DNA of 35,307 nt from Gammaproteobacteria bacterium GWE2_42_36 (GTDB taxonomy: Bacteria; Pseudomonadota; Gammaproteobacteria; UBA12402), in NCBI GenBank assembly GCA_001801305.1, contig MGXH01000036.1, positions 1 through 35,307 on the forward strand, in the 5' to 3' direction. The position numbers and the translations under genes were made by a program. The notes under the pieces were generated by a model. The model did not search any database and had not been told where the DNA came from. It was given only the letters and a program-made list of their open reading frames with translations. Position 1 is the first letter of the stretch; each line of letters starts with the position of its first letter. Shown here in pieces: positions 2,205-17,233 of the stretch.

Positions 2205-3005
2205 TCAATCTTGTATAAAAAACCAGTGTGCCTGCGGATGAGATACTACAATCGCCGAAGTCGAACTTTCTGGCACTAACTCATCCGCTTCACTCAATGT
2301 CACGCCAATACGATCGGCTTTTAAAAGCATTAATATTTTTTCTTGATCGTGCAATTCCGGACAGGCAGAATAACCGAGCGAAAAACGAGCACCTCGATAG
2401 CGGTGCTGAAAAACCGCGTCCATTTGAGCGGGCTCTTCTGCAGAAAATCCCAACTCAATACGAATACGTCGATGGACATACTCCGAAAGCGCAGCCGTAA
2501 AAGCAGCACTTAACCCGTACCAATAAAAATAGGCCTGATAATATGCTCGCTCGAATAATGTTTTTGCATAATCGGAAATACCTTGCCCGCTCGTGACCAG
2601 TTGAAGGGCAACAACATCTCTGTCCCCGCTTTGCGTTGATCGAAAATAATCCGTCAAACATAAACGATTCCCTTTTGATTGCCGAGGAAAATTAAAACGA
2701 CATAAAATTTCGCGGCTAACATGATCGGCATAAATAATTAAATCATCGGCTTCAGATTGACAGCTAAAATAACCATACACTGCTTTCGGCACTAAAATTT
2801 TCTTATCCTGATCTTCTTGAATCAATTGATCTAACACGGTTTGCGCATAGGCATCAAATTGGCTAAATCCCCAGTGTGCTTTGGCTAAATGCGGTAAATT
2901 CAAGTAAGGGATAATATGTTCTGTTTTTAATCCATCGAGACAACAAGCACCAAAAAAAGGCGGACAAGGGACAGGCTGTTGTTTCAGCGCATCATGAGGC
3001 ATCAT
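2205..3005 (-). CDS. Free-standing MetH activation domain (cobalamin-dependent methionine synthase, AdoMet-binding C-terminal module)
   Basis: The protein matches the MetH activation domain from end to end. It has PPFFG near its start (as at the opening of that domain in E. coli MetH), SEYVHRRIRIELGF, and RYRGARFSLGYSACP near 202-216, the R-x-x-x-G-Y-x-A-C-P signature that binds AdoMet. In full-length MetH (about 1200 residues) this module remethylates inactive cob(II)alamin. No homocysteine, folate or B12-binding domain is encoded in the 200 bp upstream, so this is a split or relic gene. I chose the ATG at 3005 because GGAG lies 8 nt upstream; an in-frame ATG at 3023 has no ribosome site. 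It is transcribed toward the BMC genes. It may work with a separate MetH core elsewhere, or reactivate another corrinoid protein (inference). Confidence 0.85.
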   Translation of the reverse strand: MMPHDALKQQPVPCPPFFGACCLDGLKTEHIIPYLNLPHLAKAHWGFSQFDAYAQTVLDQLIQEDQDKKILVPKAVYGYFSCQSEADDLIIYADHVSREILCRFNFPRQSKGNRLCLTDYFRSTQSGDRDVVALQLVTSGQGISDYAKTLFERAYYQAYFYWYGLSAAFTAALSEYVHRRIRIELGFSAEEPAQMDAVFQHRYRGARFSLGYSACPELHDQEKILMLLKADRIGVTLSEADELVPESSTSAIVVSHPQAHWFFIQD

Positions 3006-3076
3006 GCCGTCAGCTCCATTCATTTTTCAAAAAAAATCAATCTCTCAAAAAAACGTTCCTGCTTTTTACTCATACC

Positions 3077-3192
3077 ATTCCCGCGAAAGCGGGAATCCAG
3101 AAGCCGCATCATCCATAATCATCTTTCTAGATAATTTCGTAGCCCATAAACTGGATTCCGCAGTCCGTCATCCCACGGCTTGACCGTGGGGT
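3077..3192. repeat. Composite palindromic repeat region
   Basis: Three linked elements fill this gap. The first is a perfect 8-bp hairpin ATTCCCGC-GAAA-GCGGGAAT (3077-3096). The second is an inverted pair GCGGGAATCCAG (3089-3100) and CTGGATTCCGC (3151-3161) enclosing about 50 bp. The third is a CCCACGG-CTTGA-CCGTGGG hairpin (about 3167-3192) related to the copy at 1629-1656. Such units are typical of dispersed REP-like sequences. None is followed by a T-run. Confidence 0.7.
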
Positions 3193-3226: not shown

Positions 3227-3850
3227 TTAGAACCGCCACCACGGCTTTTGTGGCAAATCTTTCTCACAAGATAACAATTGTGTTTGATAGTCCCAAGCGC
3301 GACATTGCACTTGTTTCGCCAATGAAACCAACCAGGGCTTTTTCCGATAGCTCCCATTAATATACCCTGTAATTCCTTCATGGTAAGCCAAATAAATAGC
3401 ATAAGCTGAACTGTTACTGATCGGGATACCCGTGCGTAAAGCAATTTGATGAGAATACCAACCGATAAAATCCGCTGCGTCTGAAAATTCATCTCGATAC
3501 GCATTATGATGCCCGGTATCCGCCTGATAATTGCGCCATGTTTGATTGAGCGCTTGCGAATAGCCGTAGGCGGTCGATGGGCGTTGCCATGGCACAATAA
3601 ACAATAGCCTATCTCTCGGCGGTTTCGCTGCCGCGGTGAAGCGCGATTCAGAATACATCACCGACATAAGCACGCTGATCGGGATATGCCATCGATCTCG
3701 AACGTCTTTAGCAGCCCAATACCACTGTGGATATTCATTAAAGATGGTACAAATATTCTCCTGATGAGTCGGTGGGGATGGAGAACAAGCAGCTAATATG
3801 GCTAAAAAACTGGCCAATACAATAAACGACAAAAAACGGCTAAGACGCAT
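3227..3850 (-). CDS. Lipoprotein with lytic transglycosylase-like (SLT) domain
   Basis: This 207-residue protein has a hydrophobic N-terminal signal and the lipobox LAAC (Cys22), so it should be lipidated and anchored in an envelope membrane. The rest resembles the SLT/lysozyme-like family. SVMYSESRF (Glu68 as likely catalytic acid) is followed by STAYGYSQALNQTWRNYQ and AYLAYHEGITGY, the usual motif order of lytic transglycosylases that cut peptidoglycan glycan strands. The start overlaps the end of bepA by 11 nt with AAGGA 8 nt upstream, so translation is probably coupled. The two may act together in envelope maintenance (inference). The residue spacing after the catalytic Glu differs from classical Slt70, so the exact subfamily is not certain. 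Confidence 0.82.
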   Translation of the reverse strand: MRLSRFLSFIVLASFLAILAACSPSPPTHQENICTIFNEYPQWYWAAKDVRDRWHIPISVLMSVMYSESRFTAAAKPPRDRLLFIVPWQRPSTAYGYSQALNQTWRNYQADTGHHNAYRDEFSDAADFIGWYSHQIALRTGIPISNSSAYAIYLAYHEGITGYINGSYRKKPWLVSLAKQVQCRAWDYQTQLLSCEKDLPQKPWWRF

Positions 3851-5279
3851 TCATTTGATCCTTAATTTGTTGGATTTTTTCATTGATTTTACGTTTTTGG
3901 TACAAATCATTTTGCGCTGATTCTAAAGCCAATTGGAGTTGTTGTATAGCGCCTTTTAGGTCGCCGTATAAAAGATAGAGTTGCGCACGCGTTTGATAAG
4001 CATCCAGCAAATCATGGGCCCGTCCCTGCACCTGAAATAATAAATCGAGATAAACATCATCTTCCTGGTATCGATCTTGGTAAGGTTCCAAAACTTTTCG
4101 GGCTTGCACATACGCTTGTGTATGAAATAAAAATGTCGCGTAACTCATCATGAACGGATAATAACTCGCATGACCTGATGCTAACGCTTTATAAATAACC
4201 ATAGCCGCATCGCGATTGTTCATCTGGGCATCGATTTCAGCCTCAGTAATTTGAAAAATCAAAATCGACGGATTTTGCGCGACTAATTTTTGAATAATCG
4301 GTAAAGCATCCTTGAATCGATGCGCTTTAGACAAAGCCAGCGCGTAACCATATTGCAAAATAAAATTATTCGCATTGCCCTGTTTTTTCAATAAAATGTC
4401 ATATCGCCGCACGGCGCTCAGGGGATCGAGATTCAACTCATCCGCTAAACGCACACGCATCAGTAAATAATCAACACTATTCAGAACGCGCGCTTTTAAA
4501 GGAAACTGCTCACAACGATTGGAAGCATCGGCCAATCGTTCTTCAGTCACGGGATGTGAACGCAATAAATCTGGCACATGATCGCCGTTTAAAGAAGATT
4601 GCTTGGCTAATCGACCAAAAAAAGTCGGCATACTGCAAGGATCAAATCCCGCGTTCGCTAATGTCTGAATCCCAATATGATCCGCTTCTCGTTCAAAATC
4701 ACGTGAATAACTCAAACTTTTTTCCGCGCCACCCGCTGTTGCCGCCGTTAAAACCCCCATACCGGCATTCGGATTTTTTACGCCTGCGGCAATGCCCGCC
4801 AGCATGCCGGCGATTGTGGATAATGTCAGCCATTTTTGCTCCTCAAATCCACGTGCAATATGACGCTGAATAACGTGCGAGGTTTCATGGGCTATTACCG
4901 CCGCCAGCTCGCTTTCCGTTTGTGCCGTAAAAATCAACCCACTATTCACGCCGACATAACCCGCGGGTCCCGCAAAAGCATTGATGCTCGAGTCCCGAAC
5001 GATAAAGAAATAAAAATGTTGCTTTGGCTTGGGACTACTAGCCACCAAATGGGCGCCTAATGTTTGAATATAATTTACGACGAATGGATCCGACACTAAA
5101 GGTAACTGGTTGCGAATCGCTTGCATGAATTTTTCGCCCAAATTCTTTTCATCCTGTAGAGATAAAGATCGCTCAGACGGATCACCTAAATTAGGTAGAT
5201 TATAAGCGAAAACACTTAGCGCCATGCTAGACAACAGTAACCACAACAAGCATTGGATAAATTTTTTCATTTTCATCAT
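3840..5279 (-). CDS. bepA: Periplasmic M48 metalloprotease/chaperone with TPR domain (BepA/YfgC-like)
   Basis: This 479-residue protein opens with a cleavable signal (about 1-25, ending SVFA). An M48 peptidase domain follows. HETSH at 131-135 supplies two zinc ligands and the catalytic Glu, and READHIG (Glu198) supplies the third ligand. LLRSHPVTEERLADA comes before a C-terminal TPR-like half (about 270-479) rich in helical pairs. Length and layout match E. coli BepA (487), which helps assemble or degrade stalled LptD and other outer-membrane proteins with BamA. The ATG overlaps the stop of the toxin gene upstream (ATGA type), with GGGTGAG 8 nt before it. It is therefore translationally coupled to the toxin-antitoxin pair, an unusual neighbour. 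Confidence 0.92.
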   Translation of the reverse strand: MMKMKKFIQCLLWLLLSSMALSVFAYNLPNLGDPSERSLSLQDEKNLGEKFMQAIRNQLPLVSDPFVVNYIQTLGAHLVASSPKPKQHFYFFIVRDSSINAFAGPAGYVGVNSGLIFTAQTESELAAVIAHETSHVIQRHIARGFEEQKWLTLSTIAGMLAGIAAGVKNPNAGMGVLTAATAGGAEKSLSYSRDFEREADHIGIQTLANAGFDPCSMPTFFGRLAKQSSLNGDHVPDLLRSHPVTEERLADASNRCEQFPLKARVLNSVDYLLMRVRLADELNLDPLSAVRRYDILLKKQGNANNFILQYGYALALSKAHRFKDALPIIQKLVAQNPSILIFQITEAEIDAQMNNRDAAMVIYKALASGHASYYPFMMSYATFLFHTQAYVQARKVLEPYQDRYQEDDVYLDLLFQVQGRAHDLLDAYQTRAQLYLLYGDLKGAIQQLQLALESAQNDLYQKRKINEKIQQIKDQMNAS

Positions 5280-6160
5280 GACAATAACTCACCCGACATC
5301 GTTTGTATCTTCTCCAAGATAGTGAGAAAAAAAGCTTTTGTCCATAAAGTCATCGAAGCGCTATTTTTTATAAAAGGGAATACATCTTTTTTTGCCTGTT
5401 CGAAATCAGTTGATTGAATTTTTTCGCGCAATAACTCAACCAACGCCGATCGATCGAATGTCTTTTTTTCCTCCCATGCGTGACTTTGAACGAGCCGCGC
5501 TTTTAAATGTGTTAAATTAACCGGCGTTTGCCTGGACAAATACCAAATAAAATCATACCAATCTCTTCCTTTAACACGAACCATCCATGGCCGACACAGT
5601 AACGCATGAATTTTCCCAGCAAATAAAGAAGGCTCCGTAAAACTTTTCACCGAAAAAGGAATGGGTGAAAGCAAAAATTTAGTTTCCGTATTAAACGAAC
5701 CCGGCGGATCAGTGTCTACTTCCATTTTAATTTTAATTGTTTGCATGTGATGCACCCCTTTCAGCATATCGGGTGGGGTATCGATCATAAGAAGTTGTTT
5801 TTTCGATTCTGCTTTGATGAATGCGGATTCAATTGAAGAAGCTTGTGGCTTTATTTTCGTTTGAACAGTGGCCTCAAAACCAAAACTGGCGAGTTCCTTG
5901 GCGATTGCCTTATTATAACCATCTAAACTAAAATGCTTGTTTTTTTGCAGAAGAGAAAAATCGAGGTCTTCAGAAAAACGATCCAACCCATATAAAATTC
6001 TGAGCGCAGAACCGCCATAAAACGCCGCTTTTTCAAAAAATTTTGCACGCCACAATCCCAGCAGCGCGATCTCTTGGAAAATCTCTTTGAGCGAATTGAG
6101 ATAATCTTGCTGAGATCGGCAAATATATTTTTTTAAAATTTGTTTAATAACATCATGCAT
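5276..6160 (-). CDS. abiEii: AbiEii/AbiGii-family nucleotidyltransferase toxin
   Basis: This 294-residue protein has the signature motifs of the AbiEii nucleotidyltransferase-like family. AFYGGSALRILYG (near 47-59) is followed by RFSEDLDFSLL with the two metal-binding aspartates. The basic motif KIHALLCR...VKGRDWYDFIWYL comes near residues 180-205. AbiEii proteins are the toxins of type IV toxin-antitoxin and phage-abortive-infection modules; characterised relatives inhibit growth by modifying tRNA with nucleotides. The gene begins 4 nt after its partner ends, with AAGGAA 8 nt before the ATG. No key motif looks damaged. The C-terminal about 60 residues are family-variable. Confidence 0.9.
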   Translation of the reverse strand: MHDVIKQILKKYICRSQQDYLNSLKEIFQEIALLGLWRAKFFEKAAFYGGSALRILYGLDRFSEDLDFSLLQKNKHFSLDGYNKAIAKELASFGFEATVQTKIKPQASSIESAFIKAESKKQLLMIDTPPDMLKGVHHMQTIKIKMEVDTDPPGSFNTETKFLLSPIPFSVKSFTEPSLFAGKIHALLCRPWMVRVKGRDWYDFIWYLSRQTPVNLTHLKARLVQSHAWEEKKTFDRSALVELLREKIQSTDFEQAKKDVFPFIKNSASMTLWTKAFFLTILEKIQTMSGELLS

Positions 6161-6164
6161 GACC

Positions 6165-6812
6165 TCATTTCCTTTTTTTTAAATAATGCATGAGCAAACG
6201 AATTCGCGCATCTTGATAAACATGATTTATTTCTTGGAGATATTTTAATTTAAATTTCAATAATAAATTTTCGTCGATACGCAAATGATGAAATAAATAC
6301 TTTTCCATATCATCGCCATGCTGCAACGCCACTCTCTTATCAATAAAATAAAGCTGATCACAAAGTGCTTTTTCAGGCGTCGAAATTAAAAAAGGCTGAT
6401 CCGGAAGCAACGTGGCTTGCACAATACCTACCGTATATTGGCGCGCTGGCAAATAATAGTAAATAAAATCGCCCACGGCGGTGTTAAAAAATTTATATCG
6501 ATTACTGGTGATGCTAGTCACACTTTCTACACGTTCTGGAATGAGGCCATAGAAACCCAATGCATACGTTAATGAAATCGCCGAGGGGCCATAAATAAGA
6601 TTAGCCAACACTTCTTTTGAATAAGGATGTAAAGCGGCTGATTCTCCAAAAACGTATAATCCTTTTTTGACACGAATGAGCTCGCCTGATTTTAACCAAG
6701 CAGAAATTTTTTCTCGAGGACAAGCATAGCGACTGAGCGCAGACATCATAAAGGAATAATCCACCTCTTCTCGGCCTGCTCGTTTTCTCAATGTTTCGAT
6801 TTTCATCAGCAT
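6165..6812 (-). CDS. abiEi: AbiEi-family antitoxin/transcriptional regulator
   Basis: This 215-residue protein has an N-terminal winged-helix segment (about 1-55, ending LKSGELIRVKKGLYVF), a typical AbiEi opening. The linker SKEVLANLIYGPSAISLTYAL and the region STPEKALCDQLYF (about 140-152) are common in AbiEi antitoxins. Family members neutralise AbiEii and repress their own promoter by binding inverted repeats. The order antitoxin-toxin and the 4-nt gap are standard for the module. GGAAG lies 4 nt before the first ATG; a second in-frame ATG at 6806 is possible. An imperfect inverted repeat about 55 bp upstream may be its operator. Confidence 0.88.
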   Translation of the reverse strand: MLMKIETLRKRAGREEVDYSFMMSALSRYACPREKISAWLKSGELIRVKKGLYVFGESAALHPYSKEVLANLIYGPSAISLTYALGFYGLIPERVESVTSITSNRYKFFNTAVGDFIYYYLPARQYTVGIVQATLLPDQPFLISTPEKALCDQLYFIDKRVALQHGDDMEKYLFHHLRIDENLLLKFKLKYLQEINHVYQDARIRLLMHYLKKRK

Positions 6813-15265: not shown

Positions 15266-16066
15266 TTATCGCTCAATTTGTTCGATCGCTTTACGATACC
15301 GCGTTTCCATCATCACAATACGATCTTCATCTTCTTTCGCAATACGTTGATAATAATCTCTTTTATTTTTTAACCACATCAACTCAAACTCGACCGCCTT
15401 TAAAAAAGCAATTTCTGGGTTATCAATGGCACCAGGGCAATTAAAAATAACTTTTCTGGTTTCAAATCGATCTAAATGTCCCGCTGGGAAAGCTTTAAAA
15501 AATGGCAGCGAATCGACTGAAACGCCCCCGCCTACAACCACTTGCAGGCCTTTCTCTTTTGCTTTTTTTGCCAGGATTAATGTTTTTTCTAACATCTCCG
15601 GTTTGTTCACAGACTCTCGGCCGAGCCCAAGAGACCCTGTGAAATCAACTCGCCCCATAACAATCCCATCTAATTCAGCAATTTCTGGGATTTTGAGCAT
15701 CTCATCGAAGTTATGGTAAGTCGTAATTGTTTCCACATTCACTAAGAGATCCACTTCGTCGATAGAGTCTCCGTAGGCGATATGGGCTGCTTTCAGAAAT
15801 TTTCTTAAAGCATAAGGCGTTTCGACCATCGGCGCGATAATGCGTTCAGCACCGATACTAATCGCATCAAACATATCTTTAATTGCTTCGCATCCACCAA
15901 TTTTAATATTCAATCCTAACCCCGCAGCTGAAACGACATCTTTTAACCGCATCGCTTCTTCAAGTCGCGTTCCTTCTGCTTCAAACTCCGCTTTAATCCC
16001 ACCCACATGATAGCGATCTTTCATCTCACTTAATAAACTAACCATTTGCTTTTCTAACTTATTCAT
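15266..16066 (-). CDS. HpcH/HpaI-family aldolase (class II, pyruvate- or acyl-type)
   Basis: This 266-residue TIM-barrel protein of the HpcH/HpaI (citrate-lyase beta) superfamily has RIIAPMVETPYALRKF (Glu82), LLVNVETITTYHNFDEM (Glu112) and GIVMGRVDFTGSLGLGR (Asp141). The last two are the expected metal ligands, and RVDFTGSLG corresponds to the P-x-D-L-x-x-S-L-G motif. Family members add pyruvate to, or split it from, aldehydes. The protein ends in a charged helical tail of about 35 residues. GAGGAGG lies 7 nt before the ATG, and the gene starts 15 nt after the cyclase gene. In a sugar operon, this enzyme probably builds or trims a keto-acid intermediate (inference). Confidence 0.85.
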   Translation of the reverse strand: MNKLEKQMVSLLSEMKDRYHVGGIKAEFEAEGTRLEEAMRLKDVVSAAGLGLNIKIGGCEAIKDMFDAISIGAERIIAPMVETPYALRKFLKAAHIAYGDSIDEVDLLVNVETITTYHNFDEMLKIPEIAELDGIVMGRVDFTGSLGLGRESVNKPEMLEKTLILAKKAKEKGLQVVVGGGVSVDSLPFFKAFPAGHLDRFETRKVIFNCPGAIDNPEIAFLKAVEFELMWLKNKRDYYQRIAKEDEDRIVMMETRYRKAIEQIER

Positions 16067-16081
16067 ACTGAAGCCTCCTCA

Positions 16082-17233
16082 TTAATTTTTAAAAGTGCCT
16101 TCCATAATGACTGCGATTTCATCCTGTAATACCGCATCTAATTCTAATTTCATTAACTGAAGCTTCCCAACAGCAGTCAACAATATAAAATTAAGCGCCG
16201 TTCCTTCTGTTTTCTTATCTCGGCGAAGATAAGAAAGCAGTTGAGTAATATCTAACTCTCGCATAATACGCATAACGCGCTCATCCAACAAGTCAAAACA
16301 CAATTGGTTTACTTGCTTTTTTTCTCGCTCATTTAAAATGTTTCGACGCGCGCTGAGTTCATTGGCCAAAATCATACCAATCACAACCGCTTGGCCATGC
16401 GCGATTTGATAACCTGATAACGATTCAATCGCATGACCTAATGTATGCCCATAATTCAACGCTTTTCGATAACGTACTTCAAACTCATCTTCCTCTATCA
16501 CGGCTTTCTTAACTGCTAATGCTGAAAAAAGCAGTTTTGAATAATCGCTAAAATTATCGACACGTCCATTTTTAACATAGCGTTGATAAACATCGATCAT
16601 AGTGTTTCCGCCAATCACCATCAATTTTAAAATCTCTCCCAATCCTGATTGAATATCAGCCGGGGCTAACGTATGCAAAAAAGAGGGGTTAATAATCACC
16701 TCTGCTGGCGCAGAAAAAAGCGCAATTTGATTTTTTGCTTGATGATAATTAATGCCTGTCTTTCCGCCGATACAACTATCACTCATAGCCAATAATGTCG
16801 TGGGAAAATACACCCAACGAATGCCTCGTCGATAGCAAGCGCCGACAAACCCGCCAATGTCTTCAATAATACCCCCACCAATCACAATTAACTTTTCTGC
16901 TTTGGTGAACCCATGATCATTGAGAAAATCTAAAACTGCTAACACGCCTGTAAATGTTTTAAACTCTTCTGTCGCAGGCGCTTGAAAGACTCTCTTTTCG
17001 TCAAATTGAAAATCTTTTTTATACAGATTAAAAACCTTTTCATCGACCAACATTAAATTATGTTGATTTTGTGACATCAGAATTTGTGCGCACTGAAATG
17101 GCTCAAGATCTTCATTCAAAGCAACTGGATAAGGACGAGGCATCGACTTCACCGTAAATTGATGTGCGCCAATCGCCTCTTTCGATAAGACAAAGGATTT
17201 ATCTTCGATAAAAAATTCAACGCCTGTCTTCAT
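16082..17233 (-). CDS. 3-dehydroquinate-synthase-like sugar-phosphate cyclase
   Basis: This 383-residue protein has the motifs of the family. IGGGIIEDIGGFVGACYRRG (118-137) and SDSCIGGKTGIN (151-162) come first. The metal ligands are Glu200 (SGLGEILK), His263 (LNYGHTLGH) and His279 (IAHGQAVVIG), with the 16-residue spacing of the two His as in true dehydroquinate synthase. It differs from AroB by an N-terminal extension and KNQIALF where AroB usually has KN-x-I-G-x-F. Such enzymes turn a sugar phosphate into a six-membered carbocycle. The gene overlaps the SDR by 4 nt and is embedded in a CDP-sugar operon, not with aro genes. I read it as a secondary sugar-phosphate cyclase; it could still be the sole AroB. 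Confidence 0.85.
   Translation of the reverse strand: MKTGVEFFIEDKSFVLSKEAIGAHQFTVKSMPRPYPVALNEDLEPFQCAQILMSQNQHNLMLVDEKVFNLYKKDFQFDEKRVFQAPATEEFKTFTGVLAVLDFLNDHGFTKAEKLIVIGGGIIEDIGGFVGACYRRGIRWVYFPTTLLAMSDSCIGGKTGINYHQAKNQIALFSAPAEVIINPSFLHTLAPADIQSGLGEILKLMVIGGNTMIDVYQRYVKNGRVDNFSDYSKLLFSALAVKKAVIEEDEFEVRYRKALNYGHTLGHAIESLSGYQIAHGQAVVIGMILANELSARRNILNEREKKQVNQLCFDLLDERVMRIMRELDITQLLSYLRRDKKTEGTALNFILLTAVGKLQLMKLELDAVLQDEIAVIMEGTFKN

Follow-up and report, generated by a model that had tools for sequence, protein, structure and literature searches.

A free-standing activation domain in a gammaproteobacterium as the putative reactivation partner of a split, B12-dependent methionine synthase

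The window, by which we mean the whole stretch of DNA analysed, is contig C36 in full (35,307 bases) of the gammaproteobacterial genome G000, a 1.37-Mb assembly of 85 contigs that is 90.45% complete; G000, its congener G001, and G002 to G006 are the seven genomes of one family. On the minus strand, positions 2205–3023 encode a 272-residue protein that is assigned as a stand-alone MetH activation (reactivation) domain by PF02965, TIGR02082, and an AF2 model. The open reading frame begins with an ATG at 3023, and position 3005, at which the earlier note had let it start, is an in-frame internal ATG at residue 7 that offers an alternative start. Upstream, at 3227–3850 on the minus strand, is a gene for an SLT_4 lytic transglycosylase (PF19489, 232 bits), as in the congener. 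Two copies, 92% alike, of a REP-like palindromic 26-nt element (1627–1652 and 3165–3190) flank the activation-domain gene together with the BMC-H gene that follows it. The earlier description of the upstream region as holding only repeats and an SLT gene is thus borne out.

The genes downstream belong to a bacterial microcompartment (BMC) and are given here as context, outside the MetH system. All are on the minus strand: an EutM-like BMC-H shell protein at 1703–2002 (PF00936; NF012018, 133.6 bits), an EutN/CcmL-type vertex protein at 1202–1501 (PF03319), and a BMC-type aldehyde dehydrogenase at 1–1179 that is cut by the contig end (NF011927, 493 bits). The activation-domain gene is separated from BMC-H by a 202-bp stretch (2003–2204, no strand assigned), in which scans that perform at chance level (7 promoter-like sites found against 5.1 expected, and 2 terminator-like sites against 3.1) gave one promoter-like match at 2090–2062 on the minus strand and no terminator-like site. 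An Rfam search of the window and eight loci returned five tRNAs and no cobalamin riboswitch. Elsewhere in the window, 5276–6812 on the minus strand holds an AbiEii-type nucleotidyltransferase gene (PF08843); the gene before it matches AbiEi below the cut-off, and the two could be a type IV toxin–antitoxin pair. A surface-sugar region at 15266–17233, also minus, contains an HpcH/HpaI-type aldolase next to a homologue of AroB-related sugar-phosphate phospholyases (TIGR04425, below cut-off).

The MetH activation domain is the sole match of the 272-residue protein, with 129.3 bits (E 2.4e-37) against PF02965, the curated cut-off of which is 25, and a TIGR02082 match confined to positions 967–1181 of 1182. 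The earlier identification of a stand-alone activation domain is therefore upheld, with the longer reading frame given above. The AdoMet signature that had been claimed for it is also present. It reads R213-FSL-G217-Y218-S-A-C-P222 and is encoded at 2358–2387 on the minus strand (coordinates derived from the ORF start), and the residues R213, G217, Y218, A220, C221, and P222 (R-x3-GY-x-ACP) are invariant in all 23 aligned stand-alone domains. By E. coli MetH numbering, the Arg and the Gly-Tyr pair presumably face AdoMet and the corrin. Where E. coli MetH has Asp946, which we take to be an AdoMet contact, all 23 stand-alone domains have an aligned Asn, as does the MetH of Thermus. A universally conserved Tyr matters for MetH reactivation according to the accessible part of PMC10567725, and Y218 would be its counterpart.

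Both sequence and fold place the protein nearest to the activation domain of Thermus thermophilus MetH (8ssc, 8ssd, 8sse). Among solved relatives, 8ssd is the closest by sequence (E 2.3e-49), with E. coli MetH at E 1.3e-16. Compared with the Thermus enzyme, which is a one-piece MetH, the 272-residue protein is missing two segments, one of about 11 residues and one of about 17. The AF2 model, built with 23 stand-alone domains, has a moderate mean pLDDT of 71.7 (the five models range from 71.7 to 44.9), and residues 197–220, which hold most of the motif, fall below 50. Foldseek matched this model to 8sse (E 3.1e-21, TMq 0.80), to the E. coli domain with AdoMet (6bm5; E 1.1e-14, TMq 0.78), and to the free Thermotoga domain TM0269 (1j6r; E 2e-6), so that the protein is predicted to have the fold of known reactivation domains. 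The comparison with E. coli MetH made in the earlier note holds in that the domain family and the GY-x-ACP motif are shared. It does not extend to the type, for the nearest is Thermus MetH and the position in the tree described below is far from the E. coli type, and E. coli MetH is a one-piece enzyme, unlike the probable two-protein MetH of G000.

The earlier note held that the catalytic core must be elsewhere or lost. It is elsewhere. In G000, the 272-residue protein is the only match to PF02965, whereas TIGR02082, taken to E values of up to 1, has four: this protein and one match each on C81, C57, and C76. At C81:7182–9221, a 687-residue frame that runs off the contig end carries the homocysteine and pterin domains and part of the cap domain. 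At C57:1–315, a frame enters from the contig start and stops after the B12 domain, with no activation domain behind it. The match on C76 is the S subunit of glutamate mutase, encoded next to GlmL and GlmE. The C81 and C57 pieces are 89% and 96% identical to the core of the congener, to which they align at residues 1–687 and 745–850, and the assembly gap hides 57 core residues, including the stretch aligned with the DVHDIG motif of the congener. Because the core of G000 is broken by this gap, its integrity is inferred from G001, in which the core is unbroken (850 residues, four core domains), stops at the same residues as in G000, and is accompanied by a separate activation domain. The core of G005 is likewise unbroken, with four core domains, and ends before an activation domain. 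In G000, G001, and G005, metF adjoins the core in divergent orientation, and in G000 the core and activation-domain genes are on different contigs. A core without this domain, which the earlier note had proposed to look for, is thus present (C81:7182–9221 and C57:1–315). A full-length metH, which by the same note would have made the domain a duplicated relic, was not found in the 90.45%-complete assembly, and no TIGR02082 match there exceeds the cut-off.

How far this arrangement extends was considered in two collections. In a sample of 113 genomes, made up of close kin and mostly one genome per family, at least 83 have MetH matches and at least six, from four families, have a split MetH (G000, G001, G005, G038, G039, and G066). 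The cores of these six end at TIGR02082 model positions 859–865, and the activation domain is in a separate ORF. Within the family of the window, G006 has a one-piece MetH, and the profile search gave no MetH match in G002, G003, or G004. The second collection comes from a locus scan, of which the best 80 of 536 relatives (586 stretches), the top of the ranking only, were considered. The first 25 of these 80 have the activation domain outside a MetH, in 24 cases as ORFs of 271–412 residues. As labelled, the 25 loci are from 22 beta- or gammaproteobacteria, two unspecified Proteobacteria, and one unspecified bacterium. At L065:2886–4790, which was counted as stand-alone, the activation domain ends a 634-residue ORF in which the first 386 residues have no Pfam match; this ORF is either called too long at its 5′ end or an unusual fusion.

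In each of the 25 genomes behind these top-ranked loci, a single activation domain is accompanied by a core encoded apart from it; in three of them (G115, G118, and G126), only part of the core was recovered. The core stops 0–18 residues past its aligned end in 22 of the 25 and runs off a contig in three. At eight of the 25 domain loci, the core lies within the fetched stretch, and on C73 of G005 the domain has metF and the divergent core as neighbours. Members of the 113-genome sample recur, with the same coordinates, as three of the 25 genomes (G113 is G001, G133 is G038, and G136 is G039). The earlier note had called split MetH rare in gammaproteobacteria. It is indeed in the minority (at least six among at least 83 matching genomes), yet it forms a coherent lineage across many beta- and gammaproteobacterial metagenome-assembled genomes (MAGs).

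Trees were built for both parts of the enzyme. Among 86 activation domains placed in one tree, those that stand alone (28 rows) form one clade (support 100/97), and the stand-alone state requires one change on this tree against a mean of 23.9 when shuffled. A quick tree of 73 cores likewise unites the 27 split cores in one clade (SH-aLRT 100; no bootstrap), which adjoins one-piece enzymes of Planctomycetota (support 95). The window lineage and G005 group together in both trees, and six one-piece gammaproteobacterial MetH proteins, that of G006 among them, sit on a long, remote branch in both; E. coli MetH itself is absent from both trees, and TM0269 is likewise absent. Some features of the data bear on how the trees are to be read. 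The domain tree omits three contig-cut loci of the 80 (L111, L127, and L135), flags G005 as a long branch, and counts as fused, by assumption, the domains in eight ORFs of 577 to 650 residues from other phyla (L096, L100, L113, L128, L129, L132, L133, and L139). The core tree includes the 46 of 61 one-piece candidates that passed a length filter, excludes two split cores as too short (L167 and L168), has one congener core entered twice (L043 and L165), and carries flags of odd composition for several rows, that of the window genome included.

We consider it likely that split MetH is an old and stable two-protein lineage of beta- and gammaproteobacteria. It would have arisen by one split, independent of that in Thermotoga, and its source would have been a MetH like those of Thermus and Planctomycetota, not one of the E. 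coli type; the two genes would since have drifted apart in many of its genomes. One label in the domain tree deserves mention. L067 (CAMDGF010000006.1) is a MAG contig labelled Klebsiella pneumoniae, and its domain groups with those of Rhodocyclaceae and other betaproteobacteria (100/100); the label is probably wrong.

The position of the gene in the window invites a different explanation, namely that the domain serves, or is otherwise tied to, the neighbouring microcompartment. The earlier note had raised a corrinoid link of this kind. In the window, the domain gene is on the same strand as the BMC-H gene and 202 bp upstream of it; in the congener, BMC-H lies 3.5 kb downstream of the domain, with a 1071-residue ORF between the two that counts against a tie. 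The window has no counterpart of this ORF (L044:5872–9087, on C52 of G001), which to the eye begins like a PP2C protein and has only a borderline Pfam match, to DUF4092. In G005, the domain is at 392–1138 of C73, with two tRNA genes beyond it, and BMC-H ends 218 bases from the end of C76. Because both are at contig ends and their orientation is compatible, the two might be neighbours; the ends of the contigs do not overlap, the longest shared word being 8. BMC domains are found in three of the seven family genomes (G000, G001, and G005), and these are the three with a split MetH, though two of them are congeners, so that shared descent easily explains the co-occurrence. Shell genes near the domain were seen at only one of the 25 loci drawn from the best 80 of 536 relatives, that of the congener, in a comparison that covers nearby stretches only.

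The content of the microcompartment loci also bears on such a tie. That of G005 (C76, L062 6606–13850) encodes BMC-H, EutN, an aldehyde dehydrogenase to which that of the window is 65% identical, an RnfC/PduS-like protein, BMC-T, two vertex proteins, DeoC, a second BMC-T, and a class II aldolase. PduS is a cobalamin reductase, and the RnfC/PduS-like protein could on this explanation give the electron for reactivation. Against it, DeoC, the class II aldolase, and the aldehyde dehydrogenase are on this contig with no recognised B12 enzyme. The second BMC-T and the aldolase have counterparts in G000, where C62 opens with the end of a second BMC-T (86% identical to that of G005) followed by a class II aldolase (PF00596, 66%). 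Because these pieces match the G005 locus, the BMC locus of G000, the middle of which is unassembled, probably belongs to that type as well. The features of an aldolase-type BMC, whether PVM-like or of the DeoC type (a class II aldolase or DeoC, an aldehyde dehydrogenase, and shell genes) are all present in G005. In G000, PF00596 and the BMC-T remnant are on C62, with the aldehyde dehydrogenase and shell genes on C36, presumably as parts of a single locus; profile searches found no DeoC in G000 or G001. Aldolase-type and DeoC-bearing BMC loci have been described, as the portion of PMC4207490 available to us reports, and a literature search on BMCs with DeoC and class II aldolase and on Legionellales gave general surveys only. 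The DeoC of G005 has a Cys-rich N-terminal extension of about 88 residues, and its combination with a class II aldolase and an RnfC/PduS-like protein may be a BMC type of its own.

A search for the enzymes of a B12-dependent BMC (PDU or EUT), which the earlier note had suggested, thus came out negative for the G005 locus. It was negative too for EutB (ethanolamine ammonia-lyase, PF06751) in all three genomes, with one control positive and the BMC locus of G000 partly unassembled. It says less about diol dehydratase (PF02286), which matched none of the three genomes and none of the controls either. With shell genes near the domain at one of 25 loci and no recognised B12 enzyme on the BMC contig of G005, the corrinoid link is unproven, and we regard a tie between the domain and the microcompartment as improbable.

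Still less probable is that a MetH, either full-length elsewhere in the genome or since lost, left the domain behind as a duplicate or a decaying remnant. The domain does stand alone and away from the core in G000, and in a genome that is 90.45% complete something could be unseen. However, neither a second activation domain nor a full-length MetH was found there, the motif residues are invariant, and the same arrangement recurs in 25 of 25 genomes behind the top-ranked domain loci. In addition, the gene is under purifying selection. Between G000 and the congener (copy at L044:4939–5808), the domain has a dN of 0.107 and a dS of 0.833 by NG86, for a dN/dS of about 0.13 over 271 codons. The N-terminal piece of the core gives a dN of 0.067, a dS of 0.739, and a ratio of about 0.09, and the flanking M48 and SLT genes have dS values of 0.41 and 0.35, about half that of the domain. 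On selection, motif, shared arrangement, and the lack of a full-length MetH among the matches, we reject decay.

Two further explanations can be dismissed briefly. C76 of G000 (L055:120–3407, minus) holds a complete set of genes for an adenosylcobalamin-type glutamate mutase (GlmS, GlmL, and GlmE), a second B12 enzyme in a 1.37-Mb genome; on the same contig, L055:7624–9537 encodes a 637-residue protein with a PP2C phosphatase domain. That the domain acts on this mutase is scarcely credible: above cut-off, PF02310 (B12-binding) matches nothing in G000 other than GlmS and the MetH fragment, but glutamate mutase uses adenosylcobalamin and would not be restored by reductive methylation, the cluster has its own GlmL, and the domain co-occurs with MetH cores. 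Nor is there much to recommend an artefact of assembly or binning, to which the 85 contigs and a core broken at a contig end might point and which we give almost no weight, since the domain ORF lies inside its contig with its own start, behind M48 and SLT genes that are ordered as in the congener, and the core ends in its own stop in both G000 and G001.

We conclude instead that G000 has a cobalamin-dependent methionine synthase made as two proteins, in which the 272-residue protein is very probably the subunit for reactivation, an assignment made from sequence. The direct observations behind it are both genes, their co-occurrence, the single-clade trees of both parts, and purifying selection, and together they look like a working two-protein MetH and not a relic. 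Speaking against it are the gap in the G000 core, the separation of that core from the domain, the Asn in place of Asp946, the partly recovered cores of G115, G118, and G126, the raised dS of the domain gene, and the moderate quality of the model, which is weak at the motif. Profile searches found no C-terminal domain of MetE in the seven family genomes (10 of 14 controls positive) and no C-terminal domain of RACo in the three genomes (only 1 of 14 controls positive). With no match to either, the split pair looks like the only methionine synthase of G000, and the free domain looks like its only recognised reactivation part.

The reactivation mechanism is established for E. coli MetH, and in a one-piece MetH the activation domain has to swing onto the B12 domain and away again. 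The catalytic subunit of G000, with its homocysteine, folate, cap, and B12 domains, ends where the activation domain of a one-piece MetH would begin. By analogy, it would convert methyltetrahydrofolate and homocysteine to methionine via methylcobalamin and would stall once oxidation turns cob(I)alamin into cob(II)alamin. As MetH biochemistry suggests, the free activation domain may then dock on the cap–B12 module of the stalled core and present AdoMet, which it is expected to bind, for methyl transfer. An electron from an outside reductant would allow methylcobalamin to be regenerated, a reductive methylation carried out in trans.

Separate reactivation proteins are already known in outline. 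In Thermotoga maritima (TM0268/TM0269; Huang et al. 2007, by its title as cited in PMC7857596), a separate downstream gene product aids reactivation of the core, and that system likewise pairs a MetH core lacking an activation domain with a separate reactivation protein. With 197 residues and 12% identity to the 272-residue protein, TM0269 (1j6r) is a short and distant homologue, and a sequence profile search missed it at E values of up to 10. The Thermotoga genes are adjacent, as far as that title tells, whereas those of G000 are on different contigs and those of G005 and of eight of the 25 loci are near each other; we do not regard adjacency of the two genes as a requirement for action in trans. 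We infer that the proteobacterial and Thermotoga splits are independent. Price et al. 2018 (PMC5764234) state, in the part available to us, that other bacteria can have the PF02965 reactivation domain as a protein of its own; in that part, no lineage is named for it, and the cases described (Phaeobacter and Desulfovibrio) use a RamA-like DUF4445 protein instead. A literature search on separate activation domains, in which subscription journals were thinly covered, found no naming of a proteobacterial split lineage. The G000 pair belongs to such a coherent proteobacterial lineage.

The finding has practical consequences for annotation and for biochemistry. The cores of G001 and G005 score 975.2 and 997.9 bits against TIGR02082, below its cut-off of 1010.85, and because scores can fall below this cut-off, cores that lack an activation domain could be missed, leading to false calls of methionine auxotrophy. 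A free domain would also allow docking, affinity, and stoichiometry to be measured directly. If the ancestry that we consider likely is correct, reactivation in trans would be a widespread working design of methionine synthase rather than an oddity.
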